This document shows, in pieces, positions 6,251-17,585 of a stretch of DNA of 23,047 bases. Source of the stretch: Thraustochytrium sp. TN22 (taxonomy: Eukaryota > Sar > Bigyra > Thraustochytrida > Thraustochytriidae); assembly GCA_013306675.1 (NCBI GenBank), contig JABLUY010000383.1:1-23047 (forward strand), written 5' to 3'. A program made the translations under genes and the position numbers. The notes beneath the pieces were generated by a model that worked only from the letters and a program-made list of their open reading frames with translations, was not told where the DNA came from and did not search any database. Position 1 is the first letter of the stretch; each line of letters starts with the position of its first letter.

Positions 6251-7926
6251 TCAAGGGCACGATGGACTCGTGCTGAGGCTGCTGCGAGAGGATCTTGAAC
6301 TATGGCTTGATGGGGTGTCGGTGTAGCTGGCTTGGGCTACGTGGTCGTTCCTGCTCTGCGCTGTAGGGGTACCGGACGAGGCACTGGCGCTGCTCGAATC
6401 GACATGATCGAGGCAAATGGGCGAAGGTGTTCCGTTGACGTTTGTCTTGCGCTTCTTGAAGCCTTCGTGAGGCTCGACGCGCACGCGCGTGTGCCACTTG
6501 GAAAAGCAGGTTGTGCGTTCATTCTTTCTCATGAACACGTGCAGAGGCACACCGCAGATGGTGCAACGACGGTGCGTTTGCTTGCCGCAGATGACGCAGA
6601 GCCGCTTGGCGGGAATCCTCTTGTTGTTGGCGTTGAAGGATGCCTTTCCCGCTGCCTCTGAGTCATGTTGCAGTGCGGCATCGAGGCGGATGTCGCGGGC
6701 TTGGCCGTGGTTGAAGAACTTCTGCAACTCGGGGGTTCGCTTGCGCTTACCGGCGGTCACGAGGTCCCTCGCCGCTTCCCTGGTGAGCCCAGTGGGCTTG
6801 GGCATGCTTGGCTGCATGTTGAACTCCACCTGCGCCGTATCGAGCTGCCTGCTCCTGTAGACGTGACGGACCATGTCGACAGTGAGGCGGAACGAGACAG
6901 TGCTGAGCGCTTCAGAGCGGTTCACCTTGTCGCGGAGGGCCTTTAGCCCGTCGCTGTCTTCGAGGTTGCTCTTCCTCGCAGCCTGTAAGTAGCGGTAGAC
7001 CACGATGGCGTTGACAACGAGCTGCTTGTACGTGCGCAACGCGATGTTCTGGTCGCAGCTCAGATTCATGCACTGCGTGTTGGTGATCTGCTCCACGTAC
7101 TGTGTGCTTCCGTCGACGCCGCCCTTTGCGACGTTGTATAGCTCCTGCGGTAAGCACTTGATGACATGCACGGGCCGCATGGGCCCCTTCAGAGCGACAA
7201 GCTTGCGCATGGCGCGCCACAGCCGGAAGTGCGAGCTCAGCACCGCCCCCTCCTCCTCGCCGAAGATGGCAGGTGGCTTGGGCGGCGCACCCGCTGTCGA
7301 TGCTCTGGTGCGCCCATGTCGTGAGCTTGTCCGCCCACGGTTTCAGAGCGCGCTCCATGGCGAGCCGGGCGTCCGGAGGCACTTCAACGAGGCAGGCGTA
7401 CAAACACGAACTCGTGCTGGCAGCAACGTAGAGCACGTGATCGATTTGGAGGACCACAGCTTGGTGCAAGACTTGCGCGCGGTGCTCGGCAGGTATGGCC
7501 TTCCACCAAGTCTCGTCCCCCACGTGTTCATCTGGGTGCTCACGATACGTGCGTCTACCGCGCCTCCAGGCGCGACGCGCGTCTTGATCTCGACGCTGCA
7601 TAGTACTGACGATGCGTCGCACTCCGCGCCTGGAAGCCGGACGCGAGCGACTCCATCCGGCGAGACTGCGAGCCCCGGAACGGTCTTGTGCTGAATGAGG
7701 CCGACCTCGAACATGCACTCGCACCACGCGTCGGTTCGTCGACCAACGCAAGTATGTCTTCGAAGTCTTGCTGCGCAGCGGCCTCAGCACGAGCATCCTC
7801 GTCGCCAAGCTCCTCTCCTTCTTCGTCTTCGTCCCCTGTGTCCCGCTTGTCCAGGGGCACGAACTCGCTGTCGCTGTCGCTGTCGCTGTCGTCCTCCACG
7901 CGGTGGTTAGGCCTCGCCGATGCCAT
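6251..7926 (-). pseudogene. Frameshifted piggyBac-like transposase remnant with YqaJ-like nuclease segment
   Basis: One gene appears spread over the three minus frames. From the ATG at 7926: an acidic N-terminus (VEDDSDSDSDSEFVPLD); a frame change near 7725-7745; a YqaJ/PD-(D/E)XK-like segment with LAVSPDGVA followed by CSVEIKTRV; a second change at a run of five C (plus strand, 7517-7521); then DETWWKAIPAEHRAQVLHQA; a third change near 7285-7310; and finally a 330-aa stretch containing YNVAKGGVDG, which matches the GGVD region of piggyBac DDE transposases, and a Cys-rich tail (CVICGKQTHRRCTICG ... CFSKWH) like the piggyBac C-terminal zinc domain. The second Asp seen after GGVD in piggyBac is replaced by Thr, and the region expected to hold the first two catalytic Asp residues is not seen. 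Three shifts argue for a dead copy, although assembly indels in homopolymers cannot be excluded. No terminal repeats identified. Confidence 0.62.
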
Positions 7927-8323: not shown

Positions 8324-9459
8324 TCACCGAGGGACCCCCGCGTGGTAGGCGGATACGAGTAAGCATAGAGGTGTGATTGGGATATTTGGGATCGGGTTGT
8401 CCTTTGCGTTGGCGGCCTTTCCGTTCGTGAATGCGAAAGAGAAGTGGATCGTCAGATCCGATGAATCGTCTTTTCGTGCGCGTATCTCGGTTCGCAACAC
8501 GCCTTTGTTGAGCTTTTGCGAACATTGGAAGCCGCGTGGAATGAGAATGCCATTGTCTTCTTCTCCAGCCTTGTACAGCACGCGCATCGGACTCTTCCCC
8601 CATGACTGAACCTGCACCTGGCGCTTGCCAGGTTTCGTTGCCTTGAAGGAGGTCGACAAGGTGGCTGCGCCATCCGTGGCAGCGCGTGAAGGCGATCCAG
8701 CTGCGAGTGCCGTCTTTGAAATATGATCCGACAGAGCGAATTTACCCTCCAATCGTCGTGGCCGCCCGGGTTGGTTCTGTTGCTGCTGCTGCTCTTGCCG
8801 CTGCTGCTCCTGCTGCTGTAGTTGCACTTGCTGTTGCTGCTCTTGCTGCTCTTGCAGTTGCTGTTGCTGCGGGGGTTGCATGGGTGGGTGCTGGGGCTTC
8901 TGCGACGGATGGTCTTGCGGCGAATGCGACTGTTCCAGCGTCTGCTGGGGTTGCGGCGGTGGATTCCGAGGCTGCTGTGGTGGCGGAAATAGCGGAGGAT
9001 GCGGCACTTGGTGCTGCTGCTGCTGCGTCGGCGTCACGGACAGCCGCTGCTTTTTTTGTTGCTTTCCAGATGCCAACTCCGTCTCGGCAGGCCGCTTTCC
9101 ACGGGCCGCGCTGCAGTTGTCAGTCAAGCGAGCTTGAACCTTGTCTAGGCCGATGATGAGAAAGCCGCTGAGGTCTTCGAACAGCTTAGGCCTAGAGTTG
9201 GGGAATTTCGTGCTGGTGACCTCGTTTAGCAGACGTTCGCCCAGGTTGTAGAGGTCGATGCTGTTTCCGGTCTGCAGCCAGCACGTCCTTTCGGCGGGGA
9301 CTGCGGCGGGAGTCGCCTCGGAGCCACAAATGCAAAGGTCCTCGGCAGCGACCGGTTCAATTTCGTCAAAGGAGCTGGAGGCACAGCAACCGCCCACGAT
9401 GTAGCTGAGGCTGCCGCTGCTGCCGCTGCCGCTGCCGCTGCCGCTGCCGCTGCCGCTGC

Positions 9460-9499
<40 letters not shown>

Positions 9500-12406
9500 G
9501 CTCAATATGCGGAAGTAGAGGCGAAGAGCTGGCTTGCTTTCGGCCGAAGAGCTGCTCGACGCTTCCTCGCGAACCTCGAATGCGGCCTGGAAGCCATTCC
9601 TTACGACGATGGACGTCTCCTTACACCTGATTTGAACCTTCACGGTGGGCCGAGCCTGCGAGTCACCCAAGCTGAGCACGCGCCAGCGTGCTCCCGTCTG
9701 ATCGTCCTTGCCGTGAGGCAAGTCGTTGACGCTGCTGACATGCTTCATCCGGTCCTCATCGTTGTATGCAAGCTTGAGGAAGTCGAGCGCCATGCGCGAG
9801 GCGTCTGGATCGCCGCGTCGCCCGCGTTGGAGGAGGGCAAGGAGAAAGGAGCGAGTGGCCTCCGCATCCTCAGCGTCCGTGTCAGTACGTGTTGGAAGCG
9901 CAGCAAGCGCATCTGCATAACTTCCAGCACGTTCCAGCTCCGAGAGTCCCCAGAATCCGTGTTCGTTCTCCAAGCGGATATGAGCCTCAAAGTACTCCGC
10001 GTTGGGCCATGGACCTGAGTTCTTCTCCACCTTGAAGGAGCCTTTGTTGTTGGCAGCCAGAGTTTCCCGGAGATGCGGGTCGAGCTCGTCGTCCCGAAGC
10101 TTGCGAGACTCGTCGTAGGCTGCACTGAGGAAAGCCTCGAGCGAGGTGGGATGCTCGCAACAGCGCTTGAGCGGCGCGCGGCCGGCCGGAGAAGAGGCAG
10201 AGGCCGGAGGCAGCTCGAAGTTGTACGGAGTGAATACTCCCAGCGCTTTGAACATTGCATGGACCTGCCCACAGAACAGACGGCGCCCACTCTTAGAGGT
10301 CCAAAACGTGCTGCCATCAGGCTCGGTTTCCGGATAGACGATACCCATTGCCAGGCCGAGCCCCGGGACGCGCTTGAGGGCAACCTTGCTCATGAGACCA
10401 CCAAGATTACCGTCCACGAGGCCGCGCTTGGCCGCGTACGGCTTGTTCTTGAAGAGTCTGTTCACCGTAGCAGGAAGGACGTGGATGTTGCCGAGGCCAT
10501 GACAAGGTGGGCGCTGTTCAGCCGATGAGCCGCCTGCAGTGTTATTCTGCTGCGTAGCAGACCTGGTCTCATTCTGCGGGTTCACGTGCTCCAGCTGCAG
10601 CTCATAGCGGCTCCAGTCGCTCGTAGTAAGCTTCTCGCCGCCTGCTCCGTCATCAACCTGGGATTCCACGTCGGCGATCTGCAGAGCATAGCGAAGTCCC
10701 ACTTTGTTGTGCGGCGCAAGTTTGGTGTATGCGTTTGGGTTGGTGACGCGCGACGCGAATTCGCGGCGCAAGGCCTTCGAGGTGCCGAGCTGACCAGCGA
10801 GGTGCTTGAGAATCGTAGCCAGGTTTGGCTTGGGGTTCAGTTTGCAGAGACAGGCCATGACTTTGTTCGCTGTAATCGCGAAACTGAACTCATTCCATGC
10901 CGAGGTTGTTGCCACCAATCTGAAAACGCAGAAACGCTCCAGCAGGCGCGTCACTGCGACCTTTGCGAGCAGCTGATCTTCTGCGGAAGCGGACTTCTTG
11001 GTTGTGATGTGGCTGGCCTCGTCGATCAGAAGAAAGACATAAGCTAGCATGCCGAGAAGATGATGAACAAGGCCGTCGAGGGCAGTCATGCGCGTGAGGA
11101 GTGCCTTCAGCTCCTCCTCGGTACCTGTTTTTGTTTCAGTCAGGTCTGGCAGGCGGACTTCCACCAGCAGGTGGAGCTGCTTCTCGAGCCTCGTCAGCAG
11201 ATCGACTACAACCTTGCCCGGAAGCACACTCGCTACACGCCTTTCTTGCATCTTCCTGAAGAGGAGCTCCGAGAAGGCCTGCACCGCTGCAGTCTCACAA
11301 TCAGCCCGCTCGGAGGCGGCCGGCTGCCCAGAGGCTGCGGTAATGATGTTCATTGCGTCGTTCATGAGCCTCGTGCGCAGCTCACGAGGGTGTTTGCAGA
11401 GCGCATCGTGCACCTTTTCGAAACGGGTGTCGATCTTTTTCTGATGCTCCTGGTTGAAATCGTCGTCTCGGGACTTGACCAGATTTTGCACGAAGGTCCT
11501 CAAATGGTCTTCTGGTGTGAAGAGTAGAGCGCGGTGCGCATTGACTTGCCGGAAGAAGTCTAGCGCCATCTTGCGATTCTCCAGAATCGTGCAATTTACA
11601 ACGACAGCATCCCGCAGCTTCTCGACGAACTCGTTGAGCTGCTTGCGGAAGACATCCTCCGAGGACATTCTCGCTGTCTCGTTGATGCAGAGCACGAACT
11701 CGGCGAGGTTCTCGAAAATTCGCCGACAAATCCCGAAGGGAAGTTTGTTGATGTGATTGCGCGCTTCTCGAGAGGTACGATCCTTGCACCATTCCAGGAA
11801 CTGCTGGAGCTGGAATGAGTGCCTAACGTTGCCGCCCGGATCGATGTCGGTTTTCAGTTCGATATCCACAGGTGCAGTTGCCTCTTCGGCGAAAATGGCA
11901 TTGCAGATGTCGTCGAGGAAAGTGGTGCTCTCTTGTTCGGTCACCGACTCCCACTTGATCCTCGACGCTCCCCATTCTCCGGACCTTTCGCTGCTGCTGG
12001 TCGTCAGCAGAGCGCGCGCTTTGCCGTAGACTTCCTCGGCCTCCTCCTCCACTGACGCCAGGTACAGACAAATGGCATGGAGGAGCAAGAAGATGCTCAT
12101 GAGGCGCTGCTGGCCGTCAAATACTTCGTACACCTTGGCCTGCCCTTTGTCGCTTTTAGGATCGAGGAAGTACATGGTGCCGAGGAGATAAAATTCCGAC
12201 TCGCGCTCCATGAGCTCCCTCCAGAGCTCCCGAAAGAAGTCTCCGACGCGTTCGGCTCCCCACTCGTACGGCCTCTGCTCCTTGGGGATGAGCAGGAGCT
12301 TGGCGTCCGAGCCAGCACAGCAGAGCTCTTGCAAGGACGGAAGCGACGCCGTTCCCACCACGTTACCCGTGCTCGCCTCCTCGGAAATGGACGCTCCGTT
12401 CGACAT
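8324..12406 (-). CDS. GmrSD-like protein: DUF262 plus DUF1524 HNH nuclease, with long low-complexity tail
   Basis: Intronless 1360-aa protein starting at the ATG at 12406. The N-terminal DUF262 domain shows IPKEQRPYEWG (about 40-50), YLLGTMYFLD and FDGQQRLMSIFLLLHA (about 96-111); DGQQR is the signature of this ParB/Srx-related family. A helical middle leads to a DUF1524 HNH-type nuclease: LQLEHVNPQNE with His 607, then CHGLGNIHVLPATVNRLFKN and K in PYAAKRG. This is the order in the single-chain GmrSD enzymes of bacteria, type IV restriction systems that cleave DNA carrying modified cytosines. Beyond about 730 the protein is unlike those enzymes: an unassigned region, a Ser/Gly repeat, a bipartite basic motif KRPAETELASGKQQKKQR (about 1104-1121), Gln/Pro-rich sequence and an unassigned C-terminal domain. 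The motifs and the long frame are intact, so the gene is probably functional or recently so. Base composition is lower in GC than flanking host genes. Real activity and substrate are unknown. Confidence 0.9.
8771..8880 (-). repeat. CAG/CAA-type repeat encoding a Gln-rich tract
   Basis: Imperfect trinucleotide repeat (CTG/TTG on the plus strand) inside the GmrSD-like gene, translated on the minus strand as a Gln-rich tract broken by Leu, Glu and Val. It is followed towards the N-terminus by Pro/Gln-rich sequence. Such tracts are typical of eukaryotic nuclear proteins and absent from bacterial GmrSD enzymes. Confidence 0.85.
9411..9500 (-). repeat. Compound (CTGCCG)n-(CTG)n microsatellite encoding Gly-Ser and Ser tracts
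   Basis: In the plus strand a hexanucleotide CTGCCG array passes directly into a CTG triplet array. Read on the coding (minus) strand it gives a poly-Ser run followed by alternating Gly-Ser. The length remains a multiple of three in frame, so the host gene stays open. It may act as a flexible linker between the unassigned middle region and the C-terminal part. Confidence 0.92.
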
Positions 12407-14788: not shown

Positions 14789-17585
14789 ATGCGCGCGAGG
14801 GAAGACAAAAGCAGACGCAATCGACGCGCGACGCAGACTCGGACTCTTCTCGAGTTGCCCGCGCCGCGCTTGCGCCTGCGCATTCGCGCGCGCGTGCGTG
14901 CGCCTGCGCCTGCGCCTGTGCGAGCGCGCCCCCTCGTGGCGGCGATGCTGCTGGTGGCGGGCGGCGTGCTGGTGGCGTGCAGCGCGACGCTGCGGCACCT
15001 CCTGGAGGACGTCTTCGCGTACCTGTGCGCGGTCTGGGCGCACGAGCTCGTGGTGCTCTGCACGCTGGTCTGCGCCGTCGGCGCGCTGCTGCTTTCGGCG
15101 CGCGAGGATGTGCGCAGCGCACGCCGCTGTTTTGCGGCAGGCGACCCTGCTGCCAGCGCCGGCCGCGGCCCCGTCAAGGACGAGGACCTCAAGCGCGGCG
15201 GTAGCGGCGACGGCGTCGGCGCCGCCACCGACAAGTCTACACCACAGGCAACGAGGCCCAAGCGCAGGCGTGCCAGGGCCAGCCAGGCGCTGCTGGGCGC
15301 CATGGCCGGCTCGCTGGGCGCGCAGAGCACGGCCGCCGCGCGCTGCGAGGGCCTCTCCGTAGACAGCTGGGCGCTCGACCTGCGCGCCGGGGCAGTCGTG
15401 TTGGAGAACGTGACCGTCGCATGCACGGGCGCCGACCATGGGGCGACGCTGTACGAGTTCACGGCCGCGCTGACGCTTTCCCTTGGGCCCGACGGCGGGC
15501 TAGCCTGCAGCTCCGACACGGCGATGCAAGAGGAGGCGGACGCCCTCTGTACGCTTGCTCTGGCCGAGGCCGCGCCGCTGCACGAGGCGGTGCTTCTAAA
15601 GACCCCGTCTGAGGCAGCGACAACGCCGGCGGTGTCGCCGACCAAGAACGAGTGGCGGCACATCCTCATCTTCGCGGTCTGCTTCCTGGGCGCAGGCGCG
15701 CTTCTGGAGGTCTTCATGATCATCTTCATGCCGAACTCTTTGCTCCGGTGCATCCAGCGGCGGCTCGGGGATGGCGGCTCGCTGGAGGCGCCGTTGGCGC
15801 GGCGCGTGCGCCTCGGTTCCATTGGGTCCTCGCCCGAGCTCGACGCGCCACTCATGGCGCCGGAACGCGCCGCGCTCATCGTGGAGCCTGTTCACGGCAT
15901 CCTGGCGCGGGCCCCACGCATCCCTCTGCACGGCCAGATCTTCGTGCCCATCTTCACGCTGGTCTGCGTGCTCATGTTTGCCTTCGCCAACAGCGTGACG
16001 GGCGCTAGCGTCGAGATTACCGTCGAGTACCAGCATCGGCCCTGGTGGCCGCCCTGGCACCCGCACCCAGACTGGCAGGACAAGCTCTTCGGTCCATACG
16101 AGCTCTTCCAGTTCTCACTCGTCAACACCATCACGGAAATGTACTCAGCCGGCGTCTACATTCTGGCGCTCCTCGTGCTGGTCTGGTCCGGCGTCTGGCC
16201 CTACCTCAAGCTACTGCTGCTGCTCGTGTGCTGGGTGACGCCCACGCGTTTCCTTCCGATTGATGCGCGCGGCCGCGTGCTCGTGGTCCTCGACGCGCTC
16301 GGCAAGTGGTGCATGATCGACATCTTCCTCATGGTGCTCATGAGCGTCGCTTTCCGCTTCCACATCGAGTCCGCCGAGGTGCCCTACGCGTCCTGGATCT
16401 TGCCGCGCGAGTACGCCATCTTTGACCTCACCGTCGGCAGCCACTGGGGCCTCTACGGCTACATGCTGGCCGCCATCACGTCCATCCTCCTCGGCCACGT
16501 CATCCTCGGCTACCACCGCACGGCCGTGGCCGGCCAGGTCTCCTCGCTCCTGCGCCAGAGCCTGTATCCAGTCGACGCGAGCGAGCCCCTCCTGGACTCA
16601 ACCTGCGGCACGGGCGCCGCTGCCATCGAGGACGGCCACGGCGCGGAGGAGGACGAAGATGTGGACGCCGACGAGGAAGCCGACATGGCGCGGGTGCACG
16701 CCGAGGCCGACATCGTGCTGGGCGCCGATGAAGAGCTGGCACGGCTCGCGGCGGGTCGCCGCCACCGCCGCGCGCTCGGGGAGGCGGCGCTGCGCATGGC
16801 GCGCGGCTCGAGTCGCAGGAAGCGTCGCTACTGCTGCACGTGCCCGCAGGGCTCGTATTTTAACGTGGGCTCCGACGAGCTACCACTCGAAGGACACGCC
16901 GCGGCCATGATCAACAAAAAAGTGGCCGTGGCAGACGCCCTGGGCGAGCCCACACGCGTTGCCGTGGCGCTGGCGCTCGTGTCCACCTTTGCCATTGTCG
17001 TGGCGGGCGCCGCGGCCGACTCCTTCGAGTTCACCTTCACGGGCGCGGCCGCGCGCCTCATCCGCGCCGTGCAGCCGGACTCGGCCGTGCGCACCTATAG
17101 TATTCTCTCCATCGCGCAGGCGCTTGACCCGGGCGACGACATCATCAACCCCCCCGCCGCGAGCCGGCGTCATCTTCGTGCAGACCGTCTATCTGCTCTT
17201 CGCCTTTGTCATGCCGCTCGTGCAGTGCTTCTTTCTGCTCGCGCTCTGGCTCGTGCCCATGCGCCTGCGCGACCAGAAGATCGTCATGATGGTCACCGAG
17301 CTCATCTCGGCCTTTTCCGCGCTCGACTGCTTCATCGTCTCCATCATCGCGGCCTGCTTCGAAATTGGTCAGTTCGCCGTCTTTCTCGTCGGCGACCGCT
17401 GCGATCGCGTACAAGAATACCTTCACGAGCCCTGCTTTGGCATTCAGACCGCCTTTCTGCCTGGCTGCTGGGTTACGGTCGCCGCCGCCGCGGCGCTCTT
17501 CACTGTCAACCAGGTCGTTGTGCGTCTTTGCGACCAGGTTCTGCGTGACCGTGAGCTCGAACCTCTGCAGGCTTACTATCTGTGA
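14789..17585 (+). CDS. Two-domain PqiA-like multi-pass membrane protein, apparent frameshift
   Basis: Polytopic membrane protein of about 931 aa if read across one frame change. The first frame runs from the ATG at 14789 (alternative ATG 14945, directly before a hydrophobic helix and perhaps the true start) to about 17154; the second runs from about 17150 to the stop at 17585. The switch falls at a run of seven C (17149-17155), where one base fewer restores the frame. Two copies of a PqiA-type unit are visible: the first ends with WPYLKLLLLLVCW and LGKWCMIDIFLMVLMSVAF; the second has FEFTFTGAAARLI, YSILSIAQAL, then VMPLVQCFFLLALWLVP and SALDCFIVSIIAACFEIGQF. Between them lie an acidic loop and CCTCPQGSYF. 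Bacterial PqiA is an inner-membrane partner of MCE lipid-transport proteins; eukaryotic versions are uncharacterised, so a role in membrane lipid handling is only inferred. Confidence 0.82.

Follow-up and report, generated by a model that had tools for sequence, protein, structure and literature searches.

Analysis of contig JABLUY010000383.1 of Thraustochytrium sp. TN22, the whole of which (23,047 bases) forms the window considered here and which is designated C314 among the 453 contigs of this 37.9 Mb genome, revealed a long gene for a protein of the GmrSD type. The gene is an open reading frame (ORF) of 1360 codons plus a stop at positions 8324..12406 of the minus strand; it is stop-free throughout, and many stops are met when the same span is translated on the plus strand. 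It belongs to a family of six genes in this genome, all of which encode tail repeats akin to FY-rich (FYRN/FYRC) domains behind the GmrSD-like body. An earlier note on this DNA had reported the coordinates and an intact frame of 1360 amino acids (aa), both of which are borne out.

Pfam analysis of the window protein places the GmrSD_N domain (PF03235, DUF262) at aa 36-291 (11534..12301), with 62.3 bits against a cut-off of 33.2 and an E-value of 9e-17, and the GmrSD_C domain (PF07510, DUF1524) at aa 589-662 (10421..10642), with 23.4 bits against a cut-off of 23 and an E-value of 5.9e-5, a match that is marginal when taken alone. The order of DUF262 followed by DUF1524 in a single chain, which the earlier note had proposed and wished to see checked against these two families, is therefore confirmed. 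Custom profiles built from 60 prokaryotic and viral rows score 78.8 bits for the first part of the protein and 28.4 bits for the HNH part (aa 597-661), and the HNH region of the structure model consists of two strands and a helix.

The translation contains the motifs IPKEQRPYEW (aa 40-49, 12260..12289), DGQQRL (DGQQR at aa 97-101, 12104..12118) and LEHVNPQ, all quoted earlier, as well as GLGNIHVL...NRL. A second conserved GmrS region, which includes N289, spans aa 278-303 (11498..11575), and is followed by a linker region in which helices predominate in the model (aa 304-588, 10643..11497). The HNH sites were located by alignment at E606-H607 (10586..10591), N640 (10487..10489) and N649 (10460..10462). 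The C-terminal part of the GmrSD-like body (aa 663-845, 9872..10420) was delimited from the model and the fold comparison, model confidence being low in places. The tail comprises a first FYR-like repeat interrupted by a Ser/Gly-rich insert (aa 905-1099, 9110..9694), a basic motif of the bipartite nuclear localization signal (NLS) type found by pattern match (aa 1104-1121, 9044..9097), a Gln/Pro-rich linker (aa 1127-1213, 8768..9028), and a second FYR-like repeat (aa 1261-1360, 8327..8626), the latter half of which is apparently absent and has no continuation in other downstream frames.

Structure comparison of a model of aa 1-880 showed that SspE, DndI and BrxU match most of its length. Entries of these three proteins occupy ranks 1-7 of the solved folds and span model residues 12-849, SspE and DndI scoring highest, followed by BrxU. 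The structure prediction suggested earlier thus yields a GmrSD-type fold over the whole chain, an outcome favoured by the GmrSD rows with which the model was built. Identity to the window protein over the structural alignments is 13-16% for SspE and DndI and 13% for BrxU. SspE and DndI respond to phosphorothioate DNA, and BrxU cuts DNA with modified cytosine. SspE and BrxU are described as sensing DNA, hydrolysing NTP at DGQQR, changing their conformation and cutting through HNH; in SspE, DGQQR is required for GTP hydrolysis and the HNH motif for nicking (PMC9646914), while Y30 and Q31 are required for phosphorothioate sensing. For GmrD, the roles of D113, H114, N169 and N178 are described in PMC4619093.

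The YQR motif of the protist proteins appears to be altered. Its usual Tyr is present in 46 of the 60 prokaryotic and viral rows, whereas the window protein has Glu43, as do four of its paralogues, the remaining one (C277) having Gly. The Glu-Gln pair at 43-44 is placed against Y30/Q31 of SspE by an inferred register, not by alignment. With that register, the replacement of Tyr means that the trigger chemistry may differ from that of SspE.

The genome contains six loci with GmrSD_N, of which five exceed the Pfam cut-off, and two protein searches recovered them again. They are distributed over five contigs: C314 (the window), C439a and C439b, which lie about 12.7 kb apart on C439, C266, C188 and C277. 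Every copy is an open frame of considerable length (1253-2396 aa as translated). The earlier note had seen neither the family nor the FYR-like repeats that the gene carries. Three copies (the window, C439a and C266) keep all of the catalytic residues compared, namely DGQQR (D97-R101), N289, E606, H607, N640, N649 and K660, and three have lost some. C439b has H for N289 and K for N649; C188 lacks N289, E606, H607, N649 and K660; and C277 lacks the same five together with Q99. N640 is retained in all six, and none of the five paralogues reaches the GmrSD_C cut-off.

For the comparison with prokaryotes and viruses, 106 loci (26 viral, 80 from genomes) gave 106 frames with DGQQR, a motif that was required. 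Seventy of these passed the filters (500-800 aa, no exact duplicates, presence of [IVL][ED]H[IV]), and 60 (13 viral, 47 from genomes) entered the alignment, A3. Ten rows (L031, L033, L035, L038, L039, L040, L092, L103, L110 and L113) were left out to limit its size, most of them resembling near-copies in appearance, by ORF length and motif place. Conservation of DGQQR and EH in this set is consequently a matter of choice, since row selection required them, which is not the case for N289, N640, N649 and K660. Two longer proteins of about 1000 aa, L087 (uncultured Firmicutes) and L109 (uncultured Bacilli), each contain two DUF262-like stretches that are matched by the paralogue profile.

In a tree with the 60 rows, obtained by a quick search without bootstrap, the six copies group together (SH-aLRT 100) on a stem of 1.68 changes per column, and no prokaryotic sister is resolved; a program warning applies to C277, whose long branch may be falsely placed, and to the unusual letter make-up of C188 and C277. 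The best 80 of 205 prokaryotic loci show 24-43% identity to the query in their best segment (62-268 query residues). These data fit a single old acquisition followed by duplication, with transfer presumably into the protist lineage. The phylogeny called for in the earlier note is hence supplied for its bacterial part, and its proposal of horizontal acquisition stands as regards the prokaryotic kind of gene; if the gene was transferred, the identities and the long stem indicate that this was not recent.

Divergence among the younger copies was estimated with our own Nei-Gojobori script, pairs beyond the C439/C266 trio being near saturation. C439a and C439b share 77% identity with a dN/dS of 0.58. 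For C439a and C266 the value is 0.35, with 0.185 in the DUF262 part and 0.58 in the HNH part. Along the C439 tandem pair (L008/L009), dS ranges from 0.04 in the second repeat to 1.0 in the first, which suggests conversion or recombination between the copies, although alignment error in low-complexity parts may contribute to this unevenness. The C439b frame also extends upstream (L009:5009-5875, minus strand) by about 280 residues that are leucine-rich repeat (LRR)-like (LRR_4, E 1.4e-4, below cut-off); the LRR and GmrSD parts may be genuinely fused, or the extension may belong to an adjacent gene that shares the frame.

Two or three tail repeats follow the GmrSD body in each of the six proteins, giving 14 in all. 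Their length is 100-127 residues in 13 cases; the window's first repeat measures 195 residues with its insert. This Ser/Gly simple-repeat expansion (within 9110-9694, minus strand) is found in none of the other 13 and is possibly length-variable between strains. Alignment of the repeats shows a single V and a single G that never vary; G33 and Q111 are nearly invariant. The repeats share with FY-rich proteins a collinear pattern of V..hG, hhP.GF and FG...VQ..L; they differ in remaining below the curated Pfam cut-off. No repeat exceeds this cut-off for FYRN, the best hit being 17.9 bits against 24 (E 0.0024) in the C188 paralogue. When searched singly, one of the 14 matches FYRN (15.3 bits, E 0.015), and the window protein has no FYRN or FYRC match at E-values up to 1. 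The Pfam search of the six proteins found no SET domain or other chromatin family over cut-off.

Other frames of the genome include three FYRN and two FYRC loci over cut-off, and profile comparison links the repeats to them. The set of 13 repeats, from which only the window's insert-bearing first repeat was omitted, scores 21.3 over 101 columns against the FYR segments of three loci (P 0.0067), and none of 200 column-shuffled FYR alignments reaches this score (best 18.0). Against single segments the scores are 20.2 (C110), 11.8 (C237; P 0.22) and 24.7 (C46; 17 columns only). A subset of six repeats, picked by eye and post hoc, scores 30.4 (P 1.6e-4; none of 200 shuffles reaches it, best 18.4). 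As a control, 200 unrelated chunks were drawn; the 184 of sufficient length all stay below both 21.3 and 30.4 (best 16.8).

Each of the six proteins has an NLS-type basic motif in, or bordering on, the linker that joins its first two repeats. It is bipartite in C314, C439a, C439b and C277, of the KKRK/KRKR type in C266, and KRGR in C188. Bipartite patterns also occur elsewhere in C439b, C266, C188 and C277, and since shuffling leads one to expect 0.6-1.6 per whole protein, single hits mean little; the weight lies in the repeated place. Taken with the FYR-like repeats, these motifs suggest that the proteins may be tethered in the nucleus. A loose search of the genome found one C5-methylase candidate, presumably of the Dnmt2 type by its motifs. 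A single candidate of this type would fit, weakly, a host DNA that is without 5-methylcytosine and tolerant of a modification-dependent nuclease.

The surroundings of the genes are eukaryotic in character. Pfam matches were obtained in seven of the ten window frames given and none in the other three; those over cut-off are to a protein kinase, a tubulin-tyrosine ligase, a short-chain dehydrogenase, PqiA (two frames) and LRR, an alpha/beta hydrolase match falling below cut-off. Defence genes are absent from these ten frames as scanned by Pfam. The gene for the kinase is in two pieces: its start (...HGAYGVVV) meets a stop at 313 and its body runs from about 684, which makes an intron apparent, no longer than about 370 bases. 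The earlier description of flanking intron-containing eukaryotic genes is hence upheld for the kinase, the sole gene checked for an intron. On other contigs, frames adjoining the family copies match M12B/PAN and Arm (C266), CDC37 (C188) and RhoGAP/BAR (C277), and two of the six flank frames, those beside the C439 copies, have no Pfam match. The placement of the gene in a eukaryotic chromosome is thus supported over contamination.

Further features of the window and genome may be recorded here. PqiA (paraquat-inducible protein A), a membrane domain of bacterial type, is matched twice at 14789-17585 (plus strand), in overlapping reading frames that an intron may connect. About 1 kb from the gene, an ORF at 6254-7243 (minus strand) has a Cys/His cluster near its end. 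By eye we take it to resemble the end of a transposase of the piggyBac type, a resemblance that Pfam did not support, returning only zf-RING_16 (E 0.29). Elsewhere in the genome, an uninterrupted frame of 3044 codons encodes a polyunsaturated fatty acid synthase of the PfaA type, near which a second synthase-like frame lies in the opposite orientation; this equipment points to a thraustochytrid (PMC8660808).

The explanation that we favour, with a probability of roughly 0.45, is that the six genes form a once-acquired family of nuclear, NTP-gated GmrSD nickases, for which defence is the most plausible role. A single-chain enzyme, composed of a DUF262 NTPase/sensor, a helical linker and a DUF1524 HNH nickase, would have entered an ancestor of the protist once, gained its FYR-like repeats and nuclear-type basic signals, and been duplicated to six genes. 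The DUF262 domain would bind DNA and hydrolyse NTP by means of DGQQR; a feature of the DNA, be it a modification or its foreign status, would turn the chain from closed to open, and the HNH domain would then nick the DNA. The FYR-like repeats may tether the protein to chromatin or dock it on partners in the nucleus, and paralogues without catalytic residues may act as regulators, decoys or scaffolds. The putative targets would be DNA viruses or mobile DNA. Some mirusviruses are predicted to reproduce in protist nuclei (PMC12768974), and it is conceivable that they are targets of this family.

Several observations weigh against parts of this explanation. All six copies deviate at positions that are nearly invariant in the 60 rows, namely D60 (59 rows), G293 (58) and R830 (55). 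A profile search of the PDB returned no FYR chain, and the six-repeat profile gave weak results in hmmsearch (E 0.23 and 1.2, Z 6000); because of these two results and the unreached Pfam cut-off, we term the repeats FYR-like only. As regards a host DNA without 5-methylcytosine, DNMT6 has been reported in the labyrinthulomycete Aplanochytrium (PMC9998398).

It is possible, though it seems to us rather unlikely, that the family has instead been domesticated as a factor of chromatin or DNA maintenance, serving repair, recombination, regulation or chromosome maintenance without any immune role, nicking being directed at host DNA or dispensable. The FYR-like repeats and basic motifs do point to chromatin, three of six copies have lost HNH or NTPase residues and yet remain long open frames, the HNH part is looser than the DUF262 part between C439a and C266 (0.58 against 0.185), and no defence genes accompany the gene in the window frames scanned. 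However, the window protein, C439a and C266 retain catalytic residues that a purely structural role would not need, and the uneven divergence of the C439 tandem pair resembles that of a conflict gene rather than of a housekeeping gene.

Defence against transposons or mobile DNA within the genome instead of viruses, by nicking replicating or extrachromosomal copies in the nucleus, would leave an anatomy identical to that of the favoured nickase family. The ORF about 1 kb away speaks for it by its weak transposon-remnant look, which has no Pfam support; as no measurement ties the family to transposons, we consider this reading improbable. The loss of catalytic residues in half of the copies, the dN/dS of 0.58 in the young C439 pair and the seemingly truncated second repeat of the window protein could also be read as decay of an acquired family with no present function. 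All six copies nevertheless remain long open frames, and the age of the copies, with most pairs near saturation, and the value of 0.185 for DUF262 are unlike neutral decay, which makes this reading distinctly improbable. Bacterial contamination or an assembly chimera, to which the prokaryotic domain architecture and single-exon frame might point, is scarcely credible, because the six copies are spread over five contigs, with kinase, tubulin-tyrosine ligase, Arm, CDC37 and RhoGAP/BAR among the neighbouring frames, and because their tail repeats resemble a domain of eukaryotes that this genome also encodes elsewhere.

The occurrence of GmrSD homologues in eukaryotes is in itself not new, since Bacillariophyta, Chlorophyta and Heterolobosea were listed in 2015 (PMC4619093). 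The additional domains named in that report are DUF4268, DUF4357 and DNA_binding_1, not FYR, which differs from the present family, and homologues number up to five per genome, in Helicobacter, compared with six in TN22. The TN22 genes differ from BrxU and other GmrSD-type enzymes in their location in a eukaryotic chromosome, in the approximately 500 extra C-terminal residues of the window protein with FYR-like repeats and basic motifs, and in that half of the paralogues are catalytically dead. Among the top matches listed from the open-access literature subset searched, no report of an FYR-like fusion, or of a mixture of intact and dead paralogues, was found. What appears to be new, judged from sequence, is a multi-copy eukaryotic GmrSD family that combines FYR-like repeats with both intact and dead active sites.

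Some prokaryotic defence modules are conserved in eukaryotic immunity (PMC11249213). It is tempting, if still doubtful, to see in the present family a restriction-like immunity of the eukaryotic nucleus, in which chromatin-docked, NTP-gated GmrSD nickases would survey foreign or modified DNA, for instance that of viruses replicating in the nucleus, with dead paralogues as sensors or regulators. A review covers the genetic engineering of thraustochytrids (PMC8467673), and the genes of the family could accordingly be removed or tagged. A DNA-cutting enzyme is hazardous in a nucleus, and a long-kept, multi-copy GmrSD family with FYR-like repeats would hence offer a concrete case for the question of how such an enzyme is tamed. 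If the nuclear-immunity reading is true, the family would represent a phage-defence nuclease rebuilt with FYR-like tethering.

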